From contig NZ_NQVN01000008.1 in the NCBI RefSeq assembly GCF_002770725.1, positions 1 to 64,000 on the forward strand: a stretch of DNA of 64,000 bases, given 5' to 3'. Of the stretch, positions 16,881 to 25,761 are shown in pieces. The notes beneath the pieces are model-generated. The model worked only from the letters and a program-made list of their open reading frames with translations, was not told the DNA's origin and did not search any database. Origin of the DNA: Pleomorphomonas carboxyditropha (GTDB taxonomy: Bacteria > Pseudomonadota > Alphaproteobacteria > Rhizobiales > Pleomorphomonadaceae). Made by a program: the position numbers and the translations under genes. Each line of letters opens with the position of its first letter. The first letter of the stretch is position 1.

Positions 16881-16905
16881 GGAACCGTCCCGGTGATCCG
16901 GCGTT
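16881..16905 (+). promoter_or_regulatory. EcfG (general stress sigma) promoter, plus strand
   Basis: GGAAC (16881-16885), 16-base spacer, CGTT (16902-16905). Exact consensus, ~37 bases before the DUF1328 start. Confidence 0.88.
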
Positions 16906-16941
16906 GTCCAATCCGAAACGCATTAAATGGAGTTTTTTGTC

Positions 16942-17103
16942 ATGCTTTACTGGTCTCTCGTCTTTCTTGTCGTCGCCCTGATCGCCGCCGTCTTCGGCTT
17001 TTCCGGTATTGCCGCGGCTTCGGCGGGTATTGCGCGGGTCCTGTTCGGCCTGTTCCTCATCCTGTTCGTGGTGAGCTTTGTCTTCCAGCTGCTCCACGCC
17101 TGA
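16942..17103 (+). CDS. DUF1328 (YtjA-family) small membrane protein
   Basis: 53 residues, [20 protein letters not shown] then a glycine/alanine-rich stretch ([15 protein letters not shown]) and a second helix [14 protein letters not shown]. Two membrane spans with the GFxGIA turn define DUF1328. Family function is not established; members are frequent among general-stress-regulated genes. GGAG lies nine bases before the ATG. A perfect EcfG promoter immediately upstream supports stress control here. It is followed after 118 bases by the CHASE3 kinase gene, which may be partly read from the same promoter. Confidence 0.9.
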
Positions 17104-17221
17104 TGACACCCGCCGGGCTCTCGCCCCATGAAGGAGCGTTTGACAGGATGAAACTTGCAGTTTCCCGGTTCGCAGGCAGAATGCGTAGGGTGTGTCAGGG
17201 CGAGCGGGGGGAAACCGGGAG

Positions 17222-18730
17222 ATGCTGAGATTGGGTGGCGGCCGGTTCGTCGGCTATAATCTCCTGCTCCTGGCGGGCGGGGCGGTCGTCCTGTTGATGA
17301 TCGTCTCGGCCGCCTTCATTTTTTCTTCCCGTTCCCAGGTGCACGCCACCGAAGCCTTGCGGGCGGCCCGGGTCGACCGGCTGGTGCTGGAGTTCATCTC
17401 CGACCTGGTCGACGCCGAAACCGCCCAACGCGGCTACATCATCACCAGCAACCCGACCTACCTCGAACCGTATGAGAAGGCGCTCGGTCAATTCACCGAG
17501 GATTCGGCCGATCTTCGTCTGCGCGCCGCGGAAGTCGACGAGGGCAGGGCCATCGCGCCCGAACCGGTGGAAGAGCTGATCAAGCTCGGTCAGACCAAGA
17601 TGGACCTCGTCGGACGCAACCTTGCCGAATTCCGGGCGGGACATCTCGACCAGCTGCGGCTCGTCCTCGCCTCCGACCAGGGCCGCGTGCTGATGGACCA
17701 GATCCGCCAGAAGGGGGCGGTCATCCGCGATATCGCCGCCTCGGTGCGCGTTGCCCGCGCCGCCGCCATGCGCGACGCCGCCTTCATGCTCACCACCATG
17801 ATCACCCTCGGCGTCGCCATGATCGTCGTGCTGACGGCTGGCGCCACCATGGTGATGATCCGCCATATCAAGCAGATCGACGAGGCGCGGCAGGAACTCA
17901 TCGAGAATAACCAGGAGCTGGAGTCGCGGGTCCGCGAGCGCACCGAGGCGGTGATGCGCACCAACGACGAGTTGCAACGCTACGCCTATATCGTCAGCCA
18001 CGATCTCAGGGCGCCGCTCGTCAACATCATGGGCTTCACGTCGGAGCTCGAGTCGGCGACCGAGCGGCTCACCACCTATGTGCGGAAGGTCGACGGCGAC
18101 GACGAGAATCCGGACCGGGCCGACGCCCTGCTGGCCGTCGACGAGGATATTCCCGAGGCGCTCGGGTTCATCCATTCGTCGATGAAGCGCATGGACGGCC
18201 TCATCAACGAAATCCTGAAGCTGTCTCGCGCCGGCCGCCGGGTGCTTGAACCGGTGCCCCTGGACATGCAAGGCTTGGTCTCGGAGTGCATCGACTCGAT
18301 TCGCCAGCGTTTCGATGAGGCGGGGGCGGAGGTGCGGATCGAGGGGCGCCTGCCGGATGTCGTTTCCGACAGGTCCGCCTTGCAGCAAATCTTCACCAAC
18401 CTGCTCGACAATGCCACCAAATATCTCAAGGATGGGCGGCCGGGGCAGATCGCCGTTCGTGGCCGGCTCGAGCGCGGATCGGCGGTATTCGAGGTCGAGG
18501 ACAATGGCCGTGGCATCGCCGAAGCGGATTTCGAGCGCATCTTCGAGTTGTTTCGCCGTGCGGGCATCCAGGACAAGCCGGGAGAAGGCATCGGCCTTGC
18601 CCACACGCGCATGCTCTCCCGCCGTCTCGGCGGCGACGTGAGCGTGAGAAGCGACGGCGAGACAGGGACGACCTTCATCGTGACAATCGCCCGTGACCTA
18701 GTACTGCGTATGGGGAGAAACGAAACGTGA
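17222..18730 (+). CDS. CHASE3-domain sensor histidine kinase
   Basis: About 502 residues. TM1 (NLLLLAGGAVVLLMIVSAAFIF), a CHASE3 extracellular domain with its signature DAETAQRGYIITSNPTYLEPYE, TM2 (~AAFMLTTMITLGVAMIVVL), then a coiled-coil linker RERTEAVMRTNDELQRYAY. HisKA box with phospho-His IVSHDLRAPLVNIMGF, then HATPase with N box IFTNLLDNATKYLKDG and G boxes DNGRGIAEADF and GEGIGLAHTRML. All catalytic residues are present. Membrane sensor of an unknown periplasmic cue. A GTG start ten codons earlier is possible; the ATG at 17222 has only a distant GGGGGGA. The stop overlaps the next gene (receiver protein), its likely partner. Confidence 0.9.
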   Translation: MLRLGGGRFVGYNLLLLAGGAVVLLMIVSAAFIFSSRSQVHATEALRAARVDRLVLEFISDLVDAETAQRGYIITSNPTYLEPYEKALGQFTEDSADLRLRAAEVDEGRAIAPEPVEELIKLGQTKMDLVGRNLAEFRAGHLDQLRLVLASDQGRVLMDQIRQKGAVIRDIAASVRVARAAAMRDAAFMLTTMITLGVAMIVVLTAGATMVMIRHIKQIDEARQELIENNQELESRVRERTEAVMRTNDELQRYAYIVSHDLRAPLVNIMGFTSELESATERLTTYVRKVDGDDENPDRADALLAVDEDIPEALGFIHSSMKRMDGLINEILKLSRAGRRVLEPVPLDMQGLVSECIDSIRQRFDEAGAEVRIEGRLPDVVSDRSALQQIFTNLLDNATKYLKDGRPGQIAVRGRLERGSAVFEVEDNGRGIAEADFERIFELFRRAGIQDKPGEGIGLAHTRMLSRRLGGDVSVRSDGETGTTFIVTIARDLVLRMGRNET

Positions 18731-19173
18731 GCAAAGAACCCAAGCCCGTAGCCATCATCATGATCGAGGATGACGAAGGTCACGCCCGGCTCATCGAGAA
18801 GAACATCCGCCGCGCCGGCGTCACCAACGAAATCATCTCGTTCCGCAACGGCACCAGCGCCATCACCTATCTGTTGGGAGCCGACGGCTCGGGACAGGCC
18901 GCCGTCGGCCGGCCCTCGCTGGTTCTGCTCGACCTCAACCTGCCCGACATGACCGGCATCGACATCCTCGCCCGCCTCAAGGCCAACGAGCATACGCGGC
19001 GCACGCCGGTGATCGTCCTCACTACCACCGACGACGTGCGCGAGATCCAGCGCTGCTACGATCTCGGCGCCAATGTTTACATCACCAAGCCTCTGAATTA
19101 CGAGAGTTTTGCCAACGCCATCCGTCAGCTCGGCCTGTTCCTGTCCGTGATGCAGATTCCGGAGCTAGATTGA
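18727..19173 (+). CDS. Single-domain response regulator (Rcp1-like receiver)
   Basis: 148 residues, one REC domain and no output domain. Acidic pocket IMIEDDEGHARLIEKNIRRAG, phospho-acceptor Asp in LVLLDLNLPDMTGIDIL, Thr/Ser VIVLTTTDD, Lys in NVYITKPLNYESFANAI. The KNIRRAG...LRGxxx spacing and the EIQRCYDLGANVYITKP tail are typical of Rcp1/phytochrome-type regulators. The GTG start overlaps the kinase stop by 4 bases, so the two are co-translated and probably cognate. The next gene, a REC-HWE kinase, starts two bases after this stop, suggesting a phosphorelay or cross-regulated trio. Confidence 0.9.
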   Translation: MSKEPKPVAIIMIEDDEGHARLIEKNIRRAGVTNEIISFRNGTSAITYLLGADGSGQAAVGRPSLVLLDLNLPDMTGIDILARLKANEHTRRTPVIVLTTTDDVREIQRCYDLGANVYITKPLNYESFANAIRQLGLFLSVMQIPELD

Positions 19174-19174
19174 A

Positions 19175-20230
19175 TTGCCATATGGAACCGATCTCAAGGA
19201 GTCCATCAAGGTTCTGCACGTCGAGGACGATGTCGCCCTTGCCGTGTTGGTCCGCAAGGCTCTGGCCCGGCGTGGCCACGAGACGGTGCACGTCACGACC
19301 GGCGACGAGGCGCTGAAGCTCATCGCCGAGGGCGGCGTCGACATCGTCGCCCTCGACCACACGCTGGCCGCCGAGACCGGGCTCGACATCCTCGCCCGCA
19401 TGGGGCCGCGCGGCGCCCGCCCGCCGGTCGTCTATGTCACCGGCTCGATGGATGCCCGGCTGGCCATAGAGGCCCTCAAGCAGGGGGCCGACGATTATGT
19501 GATCAAGGATACGTCGGAGGAATTCTTCGACCTTCTGGTCGCCGCCCTCGAGCAGGCCTTCGAGCGCTGGCGGCTCAAGAGCGCGCGGGTGCGCGACCAG
19601 CAGTTGATCCGGGAGGCGCGGGACCGCGCCGAGATGCTGCTGAAGGAAGTCAATCATCGCGTCGCCAATTCGCTGGGCCTCGTCGCCGCCATGGTCCGCA
19701 TGCAGGCCGCCGCGGTCAGCGATCCGCATGCCCGCCATGCTCTCGAGGAGACCCAGAGCCGAATTTCGGCGGTTGCCGGCGTGCACCGCCACCTCTACAC
19801 CTCCGACAACATCGGCGAGGTGGATATCGGCGCCTATCTCAACCATCTCGTCGGCGAGCTGGCGGCCTCCCTGGCCGGCAACGGTGCCCTGCGCATGGTC
19901 AAGACCGAACTCATCCCGATATCGCTGCCGACCGACAAGGCGGTCACGCTTGGCGTCATGGTCGGCGAACTGGTGACCAACGCGTTCAAATACGCCTACC
20001 CCGAGGATACCAGCGGCGAGATCCGCGTCCGTTCCAGCAGGCTGGACAACGGGCGGCTGCAAATCTGCGTCGAGGACGACGGCATAGGCTGGGACGGAAC
20101 CGGCCCGGCCCAGGGAACCGGCATCGGCTCGAAGGTATTGCGGGCGATGGCGCGCAATCTCGACGCCGAGATTTCCTATTCCCAGCTCAATCCCGGCACC
20201 TTCGTCTGCATCGAGTTTCCGGCCGGCTGA
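19175..20230 (+). CDS. Response regulator-histidine kinase hybrid (REC + HWE/HisKA_2 kinase)
   Basis: 351 residues. N-terminal receiver (VLHVEDDVALAVLVRKAL, phospho-Asp in DIVALDHTLAAETGLDIL, Lys in DYVIKDTSEEF), a coiled linker, then a HisKA_2/HWE-type kinase with phospho-His LLKEVNHRVANSLGLVAAMV (residues ~150-170). An intact N box GELVTNAFKYAYP and G boxes follow. Cytoplasmic, no membrane segment. The only upstream start that keeps the receiver intact is TTG at 19175, two bases after the preceding stop, with GGAG about 12 bases upstream. In alphaproteobacteria such HWE kinases often feed the PhyR general stress response; the phyR module is 3 kb away. Its direct partner is not shown by sequence. 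Confidence 0.87.
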   Translation: MPYGTDLKESIKVLHVEDDVALAVLVRKALARRGHETVHVTTGDEALKLIAEGGVDIVALDHTLAAETGLDILARMGPRGARPPVVYVTGSMDARLAIEALKQGADDYVIKDTSEEFFDLLVAALEQAFERWRLKSARVRDQQLIREARDRAEMLLKEVNHRVANSLGLVAAMVRMQAAAVSDPHARHALEETQSRISAVAGVHRHLYTSDNIGEVDIGAYLNHLVGELAASLAGNGALRMVKTELIPISLPTDKAVTLGVMVGELVTNAFKYAYPEDTSGEIRVRSSRLDNGRLQICVEDDGIGWDGTGPAQGTGIGSKVLRAMARNLDAEISYSQLNPGTFVCIEFPAG

Positions 20231-20244
20231 TTCCCTGGCCGGCC

Positions 20245-20643
20245 TCAGCGTCGGGTGGCGTTGCGGGCCAGCCAGAACCCGACGCCGACGGCGGCAACCA
20301 CAGCCGCGAGGCGGGTATGGCGGGACGCCAGCGACAGCGCGGTCGGCGCGAAGGCCACGGCGGCGCTCGACGATATGGCCGCCTTCATCTCGCGTTGCGC
20401 CTTGTTCAGCACCAGCCGGGCGATCACCAGGGCGATCAGCGCGATCAGCAGCAGCGATCCTGCCACGATCAGCGCTGCGATCTCCGGGTCGAAGCGGCGG
20501 GAAAGCGCGATATGGCCGGCAAAAGCGGCGAAGCCCACAGCCAGTACCGCCGTGACGATGGCGATCGCCGCGGCGACGGCCGCAAGGCCGCCGCGCCGCT
20601 TGAGATGAGGTACATCGACGCCGAAAAGCCGCGCGACGTTCAT
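20245..20643 (-). CDS. Small membrane protein, phage-holin/YqjE-like (stress-associated)
   Basis: 132 residues with two strong membrane helices (about 20-46 and 57-79) and a possible third near the C-terminus (AAVVAAVGVGFWLARN). The ATG overlaps the stop of the upstream DUF883 gene by 4 bases. This pairing resembles the elaB/yqjD-yqjE stress gene pairs, where the second protein is a holin-superfamily membrane protein. Transcribed with the DUF883 gene from an EcfG promoter at 21262. The family assignment rests on context and topology, not on a clear motif. Confidence 0.7.
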   Translation of the reverse strand: MNVARLFGVDVPHLKRRGGLAAVAAAIAIVTAVLAVGFAAFAGHIALSRRFDPEIAALIVAGSLLLIALIALVIARLVLNKAQREMKAAISSSAAVAFAPTALSLASRHTRLAAVVAAVGVGFWLARNATRR

Positions 20644-21167
20644 GCGCGCGGCCCGCTGCGCGAGGCGAGGCCGACCAGGAGACCGACGCCGAGGGCAATG
20701 CCCAGCGCCGTCATCGGCCGCTTGGCGACCGCCTCGGCCACGCCGTCGAGGCCTTCCTTGCCAAGGGTGCTGGCGCCGCTCAGCGCCGCGCCGAGATGAT
20801 CGGCCGTCTCGGCGCCGGTCGCCTTGACCGTGTCGAGCGCCTCGGACGCCGTGACGCCGGTCTTGGCGGCGAATTGATCGATGATCCGCCGCATCTCGCC
20901 CAGCGCTTCCTGGGCGGCCACGGCCACGTCGCCGGCCTTGCCGGCGAGGTCGCTGCCGGCAGCGCCGAGATCCTTCTTTATCTTGGCCGCGTTGTCGGCA
21001 ACGGTGCGAGCGCCTGACGTTTCAGACATACCGAGGTCCTTTTCGATCGTATCCGCCGTATCGGCGATGGCCGCCTTGGCGGCGGAAGCTGCGGAAGCCG
21101 TGTCTTTCCTGATCTTTTCGGAAGTATCGGAACCAATCTTGCTGGCGGGGGGCTCGAGAGGCGGCAT
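20640..21167 (-). CDS. DUF883 (ElaB/YqjD-like) stress membrane protein
   Basis: 175 residues. The N-terminal two-thirds are amphipathic, lysine/alanine-rich helices in which SEKIRKDTASAASAAKAAIADT and ETSGARTVADNAAKIKKDL are near-repeats, as in late-embryogenesis-like and apolipoprotein-like stress proteins. The C-terminus has the DUF883 glycine-zipper helix ALGIALGVGLLVGLASRS. ElaB/YqjD proteins are tail-anchored and bind ribosomes in E. coli; that role is only suggested here. The start at 21167 is preferred to several upstream ATGs because AGGA lies eight bases before it. A perfect EcfG promoter ends about 95 bases upstream. Confidence 0.82.
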   Translation of the reverse strand: MPPLEPPASKIGSDTSEKIRKDTASAASAAKAAIADTADTIEKDLGMSETSGARTVADNAAKIKKDLGAAGSDLAGKAGDVAVAAQEALGEMRRIIDQFAAKTGVTASEALDTVKATGAETADHLGAALSGASTLGKEGLDGVAEAVAKRPMTALGIALGVGLLVGLASRSGPRA

Positions 21168-21261
21168 CGGCTTCGTCCTTTCTTCTCGCATGCGTCCGGA
21201 ATCCGGGCGGGCCGGGGCATTGACGAAAGCCCGTCCATTCCCGACGGGCGTCTGCTTCAAC

Positions 21262-21286
21262 AACGTCCGACTTCGCGTCGGGTTCC
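21262..21286 (-). promoter_or_regulatory. EcfG promoter of the DUF883 operon
   Basis: Minus strand: GGAAC (21286-21282), 16-base spacer, CGTT (21265-21262); exact consensus. A plus-strand near-match (GGAAC 21309-21313, N16, CATT 21330-21333) could serve the divergent AI-2E family gene. Confidence 0.87.
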
Positions 21287-21452
21287 GCCGCATTCGGAAC
21301 GGTTGCAAGGAACCGGAGCGCCGCTGGCGCATTGGTGGGGGAAGTATTTCGCCGCGTTCCTCACGATGCGGCACTCATGCGACGGAGGGGCTTCCTTGAG
21401 ATACATCGTTCGTCGGACGCCCTTCGACCGGCAGCTACCGGAGGAGCGGGCC

Positions 21453-22576: not shown

Positions 22577-23080
22577 TCAGAGATCGGCGGCGCTCTGGAT
22601 CGCCATCAGTTGCAGCAGCTTCTGGCGCGCCCGGTTGACGCGGCTCTTGATGGTGCCGACGGCGCAGCCGCAGATCTCGGCGGCCTCTTCGCAGGAAAAG
22701 CCGGACGCTCCCACCAGAATGAGCGCTTCGCGCTGGTCGTCCGGCAGCTTGTCAAGCGCCGTGCGGAAATCGGCCAGGTCGAGATGGCCATCCTGGGCCG
22801 GCGCCGAGACCAGGCGGGCCGCCGCTTCGCCGTCGCTGTCCTGAACTTCGCGGCGGGCCTTGCGGTACTGGCTGAAATAGGTGTTGCGCATGATGGTGAA
22901 CAGCCAGGCCCTGAGGCTTGTCCCCGGGATGAAACTGGCGTGGGCGCCCCAAGCCTTCATCACCGTTTCCTGCACGAGATCGTCGGCGTGGTCATGGCTG
23001 CCGGACAGAGAGATGGCGAAAGCGCGCAACGACGGAAGCTCTGCCAGAAGGGCGGATTTGAAGGCCGCAACGGCTGTCAT
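22577..23080 (-). CDS. ecfG: General stress response ECF sigma factor EcfG
   Basis: 167 residues. Sigma2 region with the EcfG hallmark FAISLSGSHDHADDLVQETVMKAW and the -10 binding segment TSLRAWLFTIMRNTYFSQYRK; linker; sigma4 LDKLPDDQREALILVGASGFSCEEAAEICGCAVGTIKSRVNRARQ. It directs RNA polymerase to GGAAC-N16-CGTT promoters, five of which are seen between 16.8 and 23.5 kb, including its own. Its ATG overlaps nepR by 4 bases. It is held inactive by NepR until phosphorylated PhyR takes NepR away (partner switching). Confidence 0.95.
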   Translation of the reverse strand: MTAVAAFKSALLAELPSLRAFAISLSGSHDHADDLVQETVMKAWGAHASFIPGTSLRAWLFTIMRNTYFSQYRKARREVQDSDGEAAARLVSAPAQDGHLDLADFRTALDKLPDDQREALILVGASGFSCEEAAEICGCAVGTIKSRVNRARQKLLQLMAIQSAADL

Positions 23081-23286
23081 CGATCGCCACTCCCATCGAC
23101 GGTCCCCGACAGGCCTTCCCGCTCCTTTCGTTCGGCCTTTTCGAGTTGGTCGAGCAGCATGGTAAGCTTCTCGGGAATGGGCTCGGACAAGATGGAGCCG
23201 TAGAGTTTCTTCAACTGATCGCCGAGATGGGCCTGGATCGGTGGCTCCAGGGCGGGATGCTCTGACGTTTCTTTTTTATCTGACAT
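23077..23286 (-). CDS. nepR: Anti-sigma factor NepR
   Basis: 69 residues. The core helices IQAHLGDQLKKLYGSILSEPIPEKLTMLLDQLEKAE hold the NepR signature (LGxxLRxxYxxxxxEPIPxxLxxLLxxL). It binds EcfG directly, or the sigma-like domain of phosphorylated PhyR. First gene of nepR-ecfG, transcribed from an EcfG promoter about 87 bases upstream, so the module is autoregulated. Charged, disordered ends are normal in the family. Confidence 0.95.
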   Translation of the reverse strand: MSDKKETSEHPALEPPIQAHLGDQLKKLYGSILSEPIPEKLTMLLDQLEKAERKEREGLSGTVDGSGDR

Positions 23287-23372: not shown

Positions 23373-23397
23373 AACGCCGGTCGTGAATTCCGGTTCC
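23373..23397 (-). promoter_or_regulatory. EcfG promoter of nepR-ecfG
   Basis: Minus strand: GGAAC (23397-23393), 16-base spacer, CGTT (23376-23373). Exact consensus. Confidence 0.9.
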
Positions 23398-23511: not shown

Positions 23512-24312
23512 ATGTCTCTCACGTCCCTGATCGCGCCGCAGCTTCCCCTTCTTCGCCGCTATGCGCGAGCCCTGAGTGGCAGCCAGGCGAGTGGTGACAG
23601 CCATGTCGTGGCCATGTTGGAGCATCTGGTGGCCGATCCCGATGGCTTCGACAGGTCGCTCGATCCACGTCTTGGCGTCTACAAATTGTTCTCTTCGGTG
23701 TGGAACGCCAACCCGATGAACTACATGCGGATGGAAGAGGACGATCGCCCGGCTGCCGATCGCCGCCTCGACGCCATCACGCCGCTGCCGCGGCAAGCCT
23801 TCCTGCTGACGGCCATGGAAGGCTTCTCTCCCTTCGATGCGTCGCGCATCCTCGACGTCGGGCCGGAAGCCTTCTCGGCCCTGTTGTCGGAGGCGGCGCG
23901 CCAGATCGGCGAACAGGTCGCCTCGCGCGTCCTCATCATCGAGGACGAGCCGCTGATCGCCATGGATCTCGAAGGGCTGGTCGAGGGCCTAGGCCACACA
24001 GTGGTCGGCAATGCGCGCACCCGCGACGAAGCGGTCGCCATGGCCAACAGCGAGCGCCCCGGCCTCATCCTCGCGGACATCCGTCTCGCCGACGGTTCCT
24101 CGGGGCTCGACGCCGTCAACGACATCCTGACCAGTTTCGAGGTACCGGTCATCTTCATCACGGCTTACCCTGAATCGCTGCTGACGGGCGAGCGACCCGA
24201 GCCGACGTTCCTGATCGCCAAGCCGTTCCGCGAGGAGATGGTGAAGGCGGTGATCTCTCAGGCGCTGTTCTTCGACAAGGTCGCGTCGCTGCGACTGAAG
24301 GACAACGTTTGA
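23512..24312 (+). CDS. phyR: General stress response anti-anti-sigma regulator PhyR
   Basis: 266 residues. N-terminal sigma-like domain (LPLLRRYARALSGSQASGD; LGVYKLFSSVWNA; LPRQAFLLTAMEGFSPFDASRIL) that mimics EcfG and binds NepR. C-terminal receiver with acidic pair ASRVLIIEDEPLIAMDLEGLV, phospho-Asp in GLILADIRLADGSSGLDAV, and the FAT GUY family motif seen as FLIAKPFREEMV. Phosphorylation by HWE kinases opens the protein to sequester NepR. The start at 23512 has AAAGG before it. Divergent from nepR-ecfG; a kinase-like gene follows 57 bases downstream. Confidence 0.95.
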   Translation: MSLTSLIAPQLPLLRRYARALSGSQASGDSHVVAMLEHLVADPDGFDRSLDPRLGVYKLFSSVWNANPMNYMRMEEDDRPAADRRLDAITPLPRQAFLLTAMEGFSPFDASRILDVGPEAFSALLSEAARQIGEQVASRVLIIEDEPLIAMDLEGLVEGLGHTVVGNARTRDEAVAMANSERPGLILADIRLADGSSGLDAVNDILTSFEVPVIFITAYPESLLTGERPEPTFLIAKPFREEMVKAVISQALFFDKVASLRLKDNV

Positions 24313-24369: not shown

Positions 24370-25761
24370 GTGCAGCCCGATGACCTTGAGACCGTTGAGA
24401 CGCTGGCGAGAGTCATAACCGTGGCTGCCTGCGCCTCGGTGTCGGCCGGCCTCGTGACGTATCTTGTTCGCATGCGTCACCGCAACGGCGGGCTTGTGGG
24501 CACCTCGGCGCTGCTCTGCGTCTTCGTGCTGGCGCTGGCGATCGGCACCATCGGCCAGATGCTGTCCGAGTCGACCGGCGGAGGAATCTTCATCCTGGTC
24601 GAAATGGTGACGGCGGTCATCGCCTTCGTCGTCGGCATCGCCGTCTGGCCGATGATTCCGCGGCTGATCGGCCAGCCGACGCGTCAGGAGGCCAACGAGG
24701 CCAATGCGTTGCTTATGGAGGGGCAGGAGGCGAACAGGAAGCTGATCGCTCAACTCAGCGATCTCAACCGCGACCTCGAAAGCCGGGTCGCCTGGCGAAC
24801 CGCCGAATTGGAAACGGTGCGGCACCGGTTCGAGGTGGCGCTGGAGGGCTCCGACATCTCCGTCCTGGAACTCGATGCCGACCTCGTCTTCACCTGGGTG
24901 CACAATCCGCCCGAGCCGCTCACCGAGGACGATATCCTGGGCCGTCAGCCGGCAGAGCTGCTGCTGCCCGCCGAGGCCGCCGAGTTCATGAATATCGGCC
25001 GGCGCGTGCTCGCCGGCAGCAAGGCGGAGCGCTTCGAGATTTCGCTGACGCTCGGCGGCCGCCAGCGCTGGTTCGAGGGCTTCATCGAGCCGCTGAGGAC
25101 GGACGGCTCGGTTGGCGGCATCCTGGCGGCGGCCATCGACATTTCGCGCTACAAGGAGCACGAGCGCGAGATGCGCGACATCCTGCGCGAGCTCACGCAC
25201 CGGTCCAAGAACCTTCTGGCCGTGGTGCAGGGCATCGCCCGCCAGAGCGTCGAGGGCAGCCCGGAGGCCGCCGCCTTCCTGGCGCCGTTCGGCAGCCGCC
25301 TGCTGGCATTGTCGGCCGCCCACGAGTTGTTGGTGCAGAACGGATGGCGCGGCATCCCGCTGGACGAGGTGGTGACGCGTGCCTGGGCCGATGTCGAGGG
25401 CACCATGGCGATCCGGGTGGAAATCGACGGGCCGCGCGTCCTGCTCGGCCCCGACGTGGCGCAGAACGTGATGCTCGGTGCCCACGAACTGGTCGCCGCG
25501 GCCGCCGCCGCCGAACAGCCGCCCGAACGGGTGCTGGTGTCCTGGGCCTTGCTGCCGGATGGCGGCTTTCGCCTCGATTGGCGAATGTTCGGGACGTCTT
25601 CGATCAAGGTCAGCGGCTTCGGCCAGCGTCTTCTGCGCACCGTCTTGCCCGTCGTCCTCGGCGGCGAGGTGACGACGCTCGGCATCTCGGATGCCGGCTT
25701 TGCCTACGGGGTAAGGGGGCGGATCGGCCCGCAGCTTCATCTCATCCAGCGGCCCGCGTAG
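24370..25761 (+). CDS. HWE-type sensor kinase homologue with degenerate ATP-binding domain (PhyK-locus protein)
   Basis: 463 residues. GTG start with GGAGGGCAAG upstream. Three hydrophobic segments (ARVITVAACASVSAGLVTYLV; TSALLCVFVLALAIGTIGQML; IFILVEMVTAVIAFVVGIAVW), coiled coil (~115-150), PAS domain (RFEVALEGSDISVLELDADLVFTWV; ILAAAIDISRYKEHEREMRDIL). Then a recognisable HWE dimerisation box LTHRSKNLLAVVQGIARQS with the phospho-His. The catalytic domain is unusual: the N box, normally HELATNAxKYGAL, reads HELVAAAAAAEQPPE with no Asn or Lys, and the G1 box GGP is replaced (WRMFGTSSIKV), though GFGQRLL remains. It may be unable to bind ATP and act as a phosphatase, scaffold or inhibitor of PhyR signalling. 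The 3' end overlaps the convergent rhaK gene by 25 bases. Confidence 0.85.
   Translation: MQPDDLETVETLARVITVAACASVSAGLVTYLVRMRHRNGGLVGTSALLCVFVLALAIGTIGQMLSESTGGGIFILVEMVTAVIAFVVGIAVWPMIPRLIGQPTRQEANEANALLMEGQEANRKLIAQLSDLNRDLESRVAWRTAELETVRHRFEVALEGSDISVLELDADLVFTWVHNPPEPLTEDDILGRQPAELLLPAEAAEFMNIGRRVLAGSKAERFEISLTLGGRQRWFEGFIEPLRTDGSVGGILAAAIDISRYKEHEREMRDILRELTHRSKNLLAVVQGIARQSVEGSPEAAAFLAPFGSRLLALSAAHELLVQNGWRGIPLDEVVTRAWADVEGTMAIRVEIDGPRVLLGPDVAQNVMLGAHELVAAAAAAEQPPERVLVSWALLPDGGFRLDWRMFGTSSIKVSGFGQRLLRTVLPVVLGGEVTTLGISDAGFAYGVRGRIGPQLHLIQRPA

Follow-up and report, generated by a model that had tools for sequence, protein, structure and literature searches.

PhyT (formerly PhyP) of Sphingomonas melonis Fr1, a membrane-anchored protein of the phyR locus, retains the HRxxN motif although its ATPase domain has degenerated. 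Its His relays phosphate from SdrG to PhyR; it also binds PhyR, tethers it to the membrane and acts as a negative regulator (PMC5898713). Loss of phyT is reportedly tolerated only in a background that lacks phyR. According to the available portion of that paper, no phosphatase activity of PhyT on PhyR was detected in vitro, dephosphorylation in vivo being left possible by its authors, and PhyT-type regulators extend beyond this one strain and are conserved among alphaproteobacteria, with RsiC of Sinorhizobium meliloti and BAB1_1673 of Brucella listed as PhyP-type proteins (PMC5898713). For PhyK of Caulobacter, the accessible text describes a relay of phosphate from MrrA to PhyK to PhyR that operates even with a mutated G1 or G2 box, and calls the reason for the retention of a non-catalytic CA domain unclear (PMC5964349). 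At the GSR locus of Brucella, neither of two kinases phosphorylates PhyR, as stated in the available part of that report (PMC4438053).

The window, i.e., the whole stretch of 64,000 nucleotides of Pleomorphomonas carboxyditropha DNA that was analysed, contains the full core set of the general stress response (GSR), the features of which are listed in Table 1. Two divergent promoters with the pattern GGAAC-N16-CGTT, which we take to be the EcfG consensus, were located by motif search between nepR and phyR, and the same N16 site lies 5' of phyR in all 12 PhyR-bearing Pleomorphomonas genomes (11 genomes plus the window). A looser N15-19 pattern gave eight matches in the window against 2.18 expected; one of 100 shuffled sequences also had eight. 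A three-gene set upstream, comprising a CHASE3 kinase, an Rcp1-like regulator and the REC-HisKA_2 kinase P0002, is also preceded by an EcfG-type motif; the set together with its motif was recovered in 11 of the 12 PhyR-bearing genomes, and in G011 a search next to the REC-HisKA_2 kinase gave neither the CHASE3 kinase nor the Rcp1-like regulator. This region (16881–20230) is a possible second input cascade to PhyR. A further EcfG-type motif (21262–21286, minus strand) was observed inside the 5' part of a DUF883-like frame (20640–21374, minus strand), with a similar motif near the DUF883-like gene in the other Pleomorphomonas loci; this gene is perhaps a GSR target with its start downstream of the motif.

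Table 1. Features of the phyR region, with positions counted from the first letter of the window.
Feature	Position	Strand	Remarks
EcfG-type motif, 287 bp 5' of the CHASE3 kinase frame	16881–16905	+	Motif search
CHASE3-HisKA histidine kinase	17192–18730	+	First gene of the upstream three-gene set
Rcp1-like single-domain response regulator	18727–19173	+	Possible alternative phosphodonor
REC-HisKA_2 kinase P0002	19175–20230	+	Intact N box GELVTNAFKYA; candidate upstream kinase
ECF sigma gene	22577–23080	-	Named ecfG from its position beside nepR and phyR
nepR, anti-sigma factor	23077–23286	-	Pfam NepR, 46.5 bits (cut-off 25.7)
EcfG-type promoter GGAAC-N16-CGTT before nepR and the sigma gene	23373–23397	-	Motif search
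EcfG-type promoter GGAAC-N16-CGTT before phyR and P0001	23429–23453	+	Motif search
phyR, anti-anti-sigma response regulator	23512–24312	+	266 aa; NCBIfam PRK09191, 351 bits (cut-off 240); Pfam PhyR_sigma2 and PhyR_sigma-like
HWE-family pseudokinase P0001	24370–25761	+	Single ORF, GTG start, 463 aa
H box of P0001, ELTHRSKNLL (residues 274–283, His277)	25189–25218	+	Intact; no variation among the 10 aligned rows
Degenerate N box of P0001, HELVAAAAAAEQPPE (residues 372–386)	25483–25527	+	Without Asn and without Lys
Lost G1/GGP box of P0001, WRMFGTSSI (residues 404–412)	25579–25605	+	Alignment

The first-pass annotation of this DNA had described a kinase-like protein directly after phyR that keeps its phospho-acceptor His region and has lost its N box and GGP box, and each of these statements was borne out. 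The P0001 gene begins 57 bp past the phyR stop codon (24312) on the same strand, with a GGAGGG stretch immediately 5' of its GTG. Pfam assigned PAS_4 to residues 160–260 and HWE_HK to residues 274–355 (76.3 bits, cut-off 22.8), and found no HATPase family in P0001, while P0002 from the same window does receive HATPase matches. The first 100 residues are predicted to form helices, with an ETR1_N-like match below cut-off, and by analogy the protein is predicted to be membrane-anchored. A DHp domain bearing the phospho-acceptor His277, in which the HRxxN motif reads HRSKN, is followed by a degenerate CA domain at approximately residues 346–455. Where the consensus of our survey of phyR loci (see below) is HELaTNAlKYGA, P0001 has HELVAAAAAAEQ, such that both the Asn and the Lys are gone, the loss of the Lys going beyond the first-pass annotation. 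At G1, the consensus WrEdGGp is replaced by WRMFGTS, the G1 Glu being lost as well; a G2-like GFG is kept in P0001, its first Gly being variable within Pleomorphomonas. The only solved structures whose sequences matched P0001 at E≤0.001 were two entries of Brucella LOV-HK (6ph4 and 5epv); VAAAA of P0001 aligns with ATNAV of that protein and no other alignment yields an Asn, which removes the objection that the residue might be retained in an alternative alignment. The NCBIfam PhyK model had no match to P0001 at E≤1.

The protein was found in 12 of 14 Pleomorphomonas genomes, our own included, the other 11 being at 74–81% identity, and its gene adjoins phyR in all 12 PhyR-bearing genomes of the genus. 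A separate search for related loci returned nine, from five Pleomorphomonas isolates, two Pleomorphomonas MAGs and two Proteobacteria MAGs; these are the same genomes as nine in the genus set and were counted once. The H box is unchanged in all 12 proteins and the N-box Asn is present in none of them, so that the orthologues at phyR loci share the loss, as evidenced by their alignment; the residues that replace the Asn, the Lys and G1 vary across the genus, as would be expected with nucleotide binding no longer under selection. The orthologue of G017 ends about three codons earlier than P0001. A frameshift, a sequencing slip or a misalignment behind the N-box loss was ruled out by the presence of the protein in 12 of the 14 genomes, each time without the Asn. 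The remaining two genomes, G010 and G018 (100% and 98% complete), yielded no PhyR, no NepR and no P0001 orthologue, nor any kinase of the P0001 superfamily (E≤0.001 with P0001 as query; E≤0.0001 with a PhyK/PhyT-type query). These two represent a Pleomorphomonas lineage apparently devoid of the general stress response. The pseudokinase hence goes with the GSR and is absent where PhyR is absent.

To place these losses, phyR loci were surveyed across the order. PhyR was searched for in 219 genomes at least 90% complete, of which 139 were positive at E≤1e-12, and a sample of 80 phyR loci from 77 genomes was drawn with one or a few per genus, other genera of our organism's own family included. Of the 80 loci, 63 had HWE/HisKA_2 proteins within the stretch retrieved, 92 proteins in total, 90 with a readable His motif. 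The Asn was absent from the N-box place in 16 of these 90, or 15 after the removal of L101 (3472–4950), which was dropped as an Asn loss when an intact N box was seen in a second overlapping frame and read as a frameshift. Thirteen of the 15 form a single type (ELHHR in 12, EIHHR in L144), and 11 of the 13 are encoded on the strand opposite phyR; the ELHHR proteins L139 and L150 keep the Asn. We refer to this type as PhyK/PhyT-type, a label that rests on a match of P0004, from a sister genus, to the NCBIfam PhyK model that lies below cut-off (146 bits over residues 119–511, cut-off 750); P0002 scored 118 bits against the same model (cut-off 750) over its DHp-CA part. Five loci from sister genera of the own family (L074, L076, L077, L078 and L079) carry PhyK/PhyT-type proteins whose N box is degenerate and whose genes run opposite to phyR.

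The other two Asn-less proteins of the survey are L120, from G042 (family f24, genus g29), and L133. The G042 protein is an orthologue with 43% identity to P0001 from another family that has also lost its Asn; among the other near relatives in f24, f42 and f28, the Asn is kept in 12 of 12 proteins with a readable N box. L133 (4318–5433; f37, g42) is a phyR neighbour from a group that we provisionally label RsiC-like, and its N box, HELVMKATRATS, is without Asn. Coming on top of the other losses, this single one may hint that kinases encoded beside phyR become non-kinases time and again.

The descent of P0001 was examined in a tree built from the PAS and DHp regions with the CA domain left out (116 rows, among them nine of the 12 Pleomorphomonas proteins and no named PhyT or PhyK row); it was made by a quick method with SH-aLRT support only and carried long-branch warnings. 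P0001 grouped with the g29 rows (SH-aLRT 93), among the ELTHRSKNLL proteins. The next branches are f24 proteins of g91 and g118 (fork 98), in which the Asn is kept and Thr replaces the Lys (HELxxNALTYGA), and outside those (fork 92) lie proteins of f24 g63 and g95 and f42 g47, whose N boxes are intact. Across the root split from P0001 stood all 13 PhyK/PhyT-type rows, in two groups of four and nine that may belong together, and P0001 thus fell outside the PhyK/PhyT lineage in this tree. By this placement, P0001 lost its ATP site independently of the PhyK/PhyT-type proteins, starting from a seemingly intact HWE kinase encoded at this very position. The N box of g29 reads HELFVEARGAGD in the one readable genome, the second g29 sequence ending before the N box; the Asn may have been lost once before the split of Pleomorphomonas and g29, or twice. 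That the Lys was lost first is only suggested by the order of branches, because the Lys is variable elsewhere in the survey too.

A quick rpoB tree of 27 genomes (29 were searched; G317 gave no match and the gene of G004 came in three pieces), for which the frames were picked by rpoB motifs, recovered the own family, f1, as one clade (98) and f24 as one clade (99), with G010 and G018 outside the PhyR-bearing Pleomorphomonas. The PhyR tree (90 rows) placed the Pleomorphomonas sequences as sister to those of f24 g29 (100/99), and this pair lay within a group of f24 and f42 g47 sequences (99/96) that excluded the other f1 genera. A constraint joining the PhyR of f1 genera g1, g2 and g6 was rejected (p-AU 0.00037; a subset with long branches, chosen after the tree had been seen), and one joining all f1 PhyR was rejected more strongly (p-AU 1.25e-66, with long branches in the set). 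Pleomorphomonas and G042 share an island of common order: CHASE3 kinase, Rcp1-like regulator, REC-HisKA_2 kinase, DUF883, AI-2E, sigma gene, nepR, phyR and pseudokinase. Taken together, the trees and gene order suggest that the phyR locus arrived horizontally, the simplest account being that an f24-like donor passed on the island. All five genomes of f1 genera g2, g4, g5 and g6 have PhyK/PhyT-type proteins (E≤1e-44), and the same type of query found nothing better than 4.7e-11 in the 14 Pleomorphomonas genomes and one g3 genome, the latter having an RsiC-like protein in its place. It is plausible that an older PhyK/PhyT-type protein was displaced in Pleomorphomonas.

Selection on the pseudokinase was estimated over 10 of the 12 loci, with synonymous differences high (0.4–0.7), which makes the ratios rough. 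In the DHp domain pN/pS came to 0.12 and in CA to 0.23; it was 0.03 in the CA helix preceding the N box and 0.27 across the N box plus lid. The live kinase P0002 in the same genomes gave 0.04, 0.18, 0.01 and 0.19 for these regions, respectively. A run on nine pseudokinase sequences agreed. The dead CA domain is therefore under weaker constraint than the live one, yet it is under purifying selection and hence maintained rather than decaying, and no stretch measured in the protein is more conserved than its helix preceding the N box. The AlphaFold model, built from 10 rows, had a mean pLDDT of 64, with values below 50 in the membrane region and in the helix that carries the His, and use of it was confined to the PAS and CA domains. 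In this model the CA fold is kept over residues 331–450 (block means 79–92 pLDDT), with only about eight residues between strand and helix at the expected position of the lid. Brucella LOV-HK 6ph4 was the top Foldseek match of the model, and 5epv appeared at ranks 13 and 15.

The genome was also examined for partners. Four HWE/HisKA_2 proteins were found in it, namely P0001 and three with intact N boxes (P0002 and one each on contigs C24 and C10). P0002 lies on the same contig in the same island in 11 of the 12 Pleomorphomonas genomes and in G042, where the CHASE3 kinase and the Rcp1-like regulator are likewise present; in G007 it is at the end of another contig. An SdrG-like single-domain regulator with an FAFMTG motif is encoded on another contig of the own genome (G000:C11:495-866), the motif published for SdrG-type regulators being PFXFATG(G/Y) in the source as available. 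Relatives at 59–100% identity to the query were found in 11 of the 12 PhyR-bearing Pleomorphomonas genomes, giving a candidate donor of the SdrG/MrrA type in the own genome and 10 others; none was found in G011 (89% complete) or in the two PhyR-less genomes. The best solved match of a query from a sister species was SdrG 5ieb (E 1.3e-14). At E≤1e-6, the f24 genomes G042, G278 and G317 gave no SdrG-like regulator, only PhyR plus a 1009-aa frame in G042. No EcfG motif was present within 400 bp 5' of the SdrG-like frames at 11 of 11 loci, nor in the 400 bp preceding the C24 and C10 kinase genes, and regulation of these genes by EcfG was rejected on that basis.

With the residues of its ATP site gone from the sequence, P0001 is probably not an autokinase. 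We propose, at about an even chance, that it is a separately evolved, membrane-anchored and PhyT-like protein which no longer autophosphorylates and serves as a histidine phosphotransferase (HPt) and as a holder of PhyR, each phosphotransfer and binding step being modelled on PhyT and PhyK. The intact HWE/HisKA_2 kinases of the cell would phosphorylate the SdrG-like regulator or, alternatively, the Rcp1-like one; the single-domain regulator would hand the phosphate to His277 of the pseudokinase, from which it would pass to the receiver domain of PhyR, and PhyR~P would then remove NepR from the sigma factor. Under no stress, the pseudokinase would keep PhyR at the membrane, shielded from stray phosphorylation. 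The loss of the ATP site combined with an H box identical in 12 of 12 Pleomorphomonas proteins would favor this reading, as would the purifying selection on the CA domain, the position of the gene beside phyR and its absence wherever PhyR is absent, the EcfG-type promoter, the three intact kinases and the candidate donors. Several observations stand against it. P0001 is apart from the PhyK/PhyT-type proteins, so the comparison would be one of role and place, not of descent; the SdrG-like regulator was not found in the three f24 genomes searched, including G042 with its Asn-less orthologue, or in G011; its genes have no EcfG motif in the 400 bp in front of them; constraint on DHp is roughly threefold weaker in the pseudokinase than in P0002 (pN/pS 0.12 vs. 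0.04); and the putative periplasmic sensor of PhyT has no recognised counterpart in P0001.

The first-pass annotation had put the protein forward as a possible phosphatase, scaffold or antagonist controlling the general stress response. What stands of this is a probable non-autokinase tied to PhyR, as judged from sequence, and the scaffold or antagonist idea has a precedent in PhyT; a histidine phosphotransferase role is a possibility that it missed. The phosphatase part is not preferred. A PhyR phosphatase or phosphate sink, in which His277 drains PhyR~P or the single-domain regulator and so makes the protein purely a negative regulator, would fit feedback through the EcfG-type promoter before phyR and P0001, and there are models for it: PhyP was first read in this way, with activity in vivo left possible by the PhyT authors in the accessible text (PMC5898713), and LovK with LovR, which drains MrrA in Caulobacter, is a documented sink in the part of that paper available (PMC5964349). 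Weighed against the lack of PhyT phosphatase activity on PhyR~P in vitro, as given in the same available text (PMC5898713), we consider it unlikely. The protein could instead be the acceptor subunit of a hetero-dimer, its DHp His receiving phosphate in trans from an intact kinase's CA domain (P0002, C24 or C10). Three such kinases were found in the genome and P0002 lies in the same island in 11 of the 12 Pleomorphomonas genomes and in G042; the sequence carries no sign of hetero-dimerisation, and many characterised HWE/HisKA2 kinases are said to be non-dimeric in the accessible portion of PMC12148442, which makes this account quite improbable.

A pure PhyR-binding scaffold or anchor with the His as a relic draws on the sequestration of PhyR by PhyT (PMC5898713, available portion) and on the strong conservation of the CA helix before the N box. 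An invariant H box argues against it, as does a pN/pS in DHp that is half that in CA, which a relic His would not predict, and we give it a low probability, of around one in ten. Retention of kinase activity with ATP bound in an unusual way has on its side the predicted CA fold, the match of that fold to 6ph4 and the GFG kept in P0001; with the Asn, Lys, G1 Glu and GGP all gone, and variously replaced across the genus, we regard this as very improbable. The loss of catalytic residues might also be taken as a sign of a decaying pseudogene, a view largely refuted by a long open frame in 12 of 12 genomes and by pN/pS well below 1 in every domain.

Compared with the described systems, P0001 as a candidate phosphotransferase is most like PhyT, in that both are proteins of the phyR locus with the HRxxN motif kept and the ATPase domain degenerate. 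It differs in having N-terminal helices and a PAS domain where PhyT has its putative sensor, and in its distance in the PAS+DHp tree from the PhyK/PhyT-type proteins at other phyR loci, the PhyT sequence itself being outside that comparison. The likeness to PhyK is that of a phosphotransferase of the PhyR pathway, the dispensable G1 or G2 box being a feature of PhyK; unlike P0001, which is an HWE protein with a degenerate CA domain, PhyK is a HisKA2 protein with a conserved one. The EVSHRSKNLL group presumably includes RsiC and BAB1_1673, and it differs from P0001 in that 13 of 14 sampled EV(S/T)HRSKN proteins keep the Asn and the short ones form a separate clade, the named proteins being outside the tree. 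Brucella LOV-HK, the closest solved match in both sequence and fold, has kept its N box (ATNAV) and carries a LOV sensor. A search of titles and the openings of abstracts, with most subscription papers outside its range, returned no published report of the P0001 lineage and no literature linking Pleomorphomonas to the general stress response, the one pertinent paper on a degenerate ATPase domain in a PhyR-linked kinase being that on PhyT. Most likely, the role would be one already known from PhyT and PhyK and the protein lineage a different one.

The cases of PhyT and PhyK illustrate that supposed PhyR kinases can turn out to be phosphotransferases. We tentatively suggest, at somewhat less than an even chance, that the PhyT-like dead-kinase phosphotransferase evolved at least twice from different kinase lineages, once from the PhyK/PhyT-type and once from the ELTHRSKNLL HWE proteins, the second type travelling with the phyR island into Pleomorphomonas. 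The P0001 lineage offers a natural series, from an intact N box through one with the Lys replaced to one with both Asn and Lys lost, in which to ask why a relay is used over a direct kinase, and the same series is suited to the question of why a non-catalytic CA domain persists.
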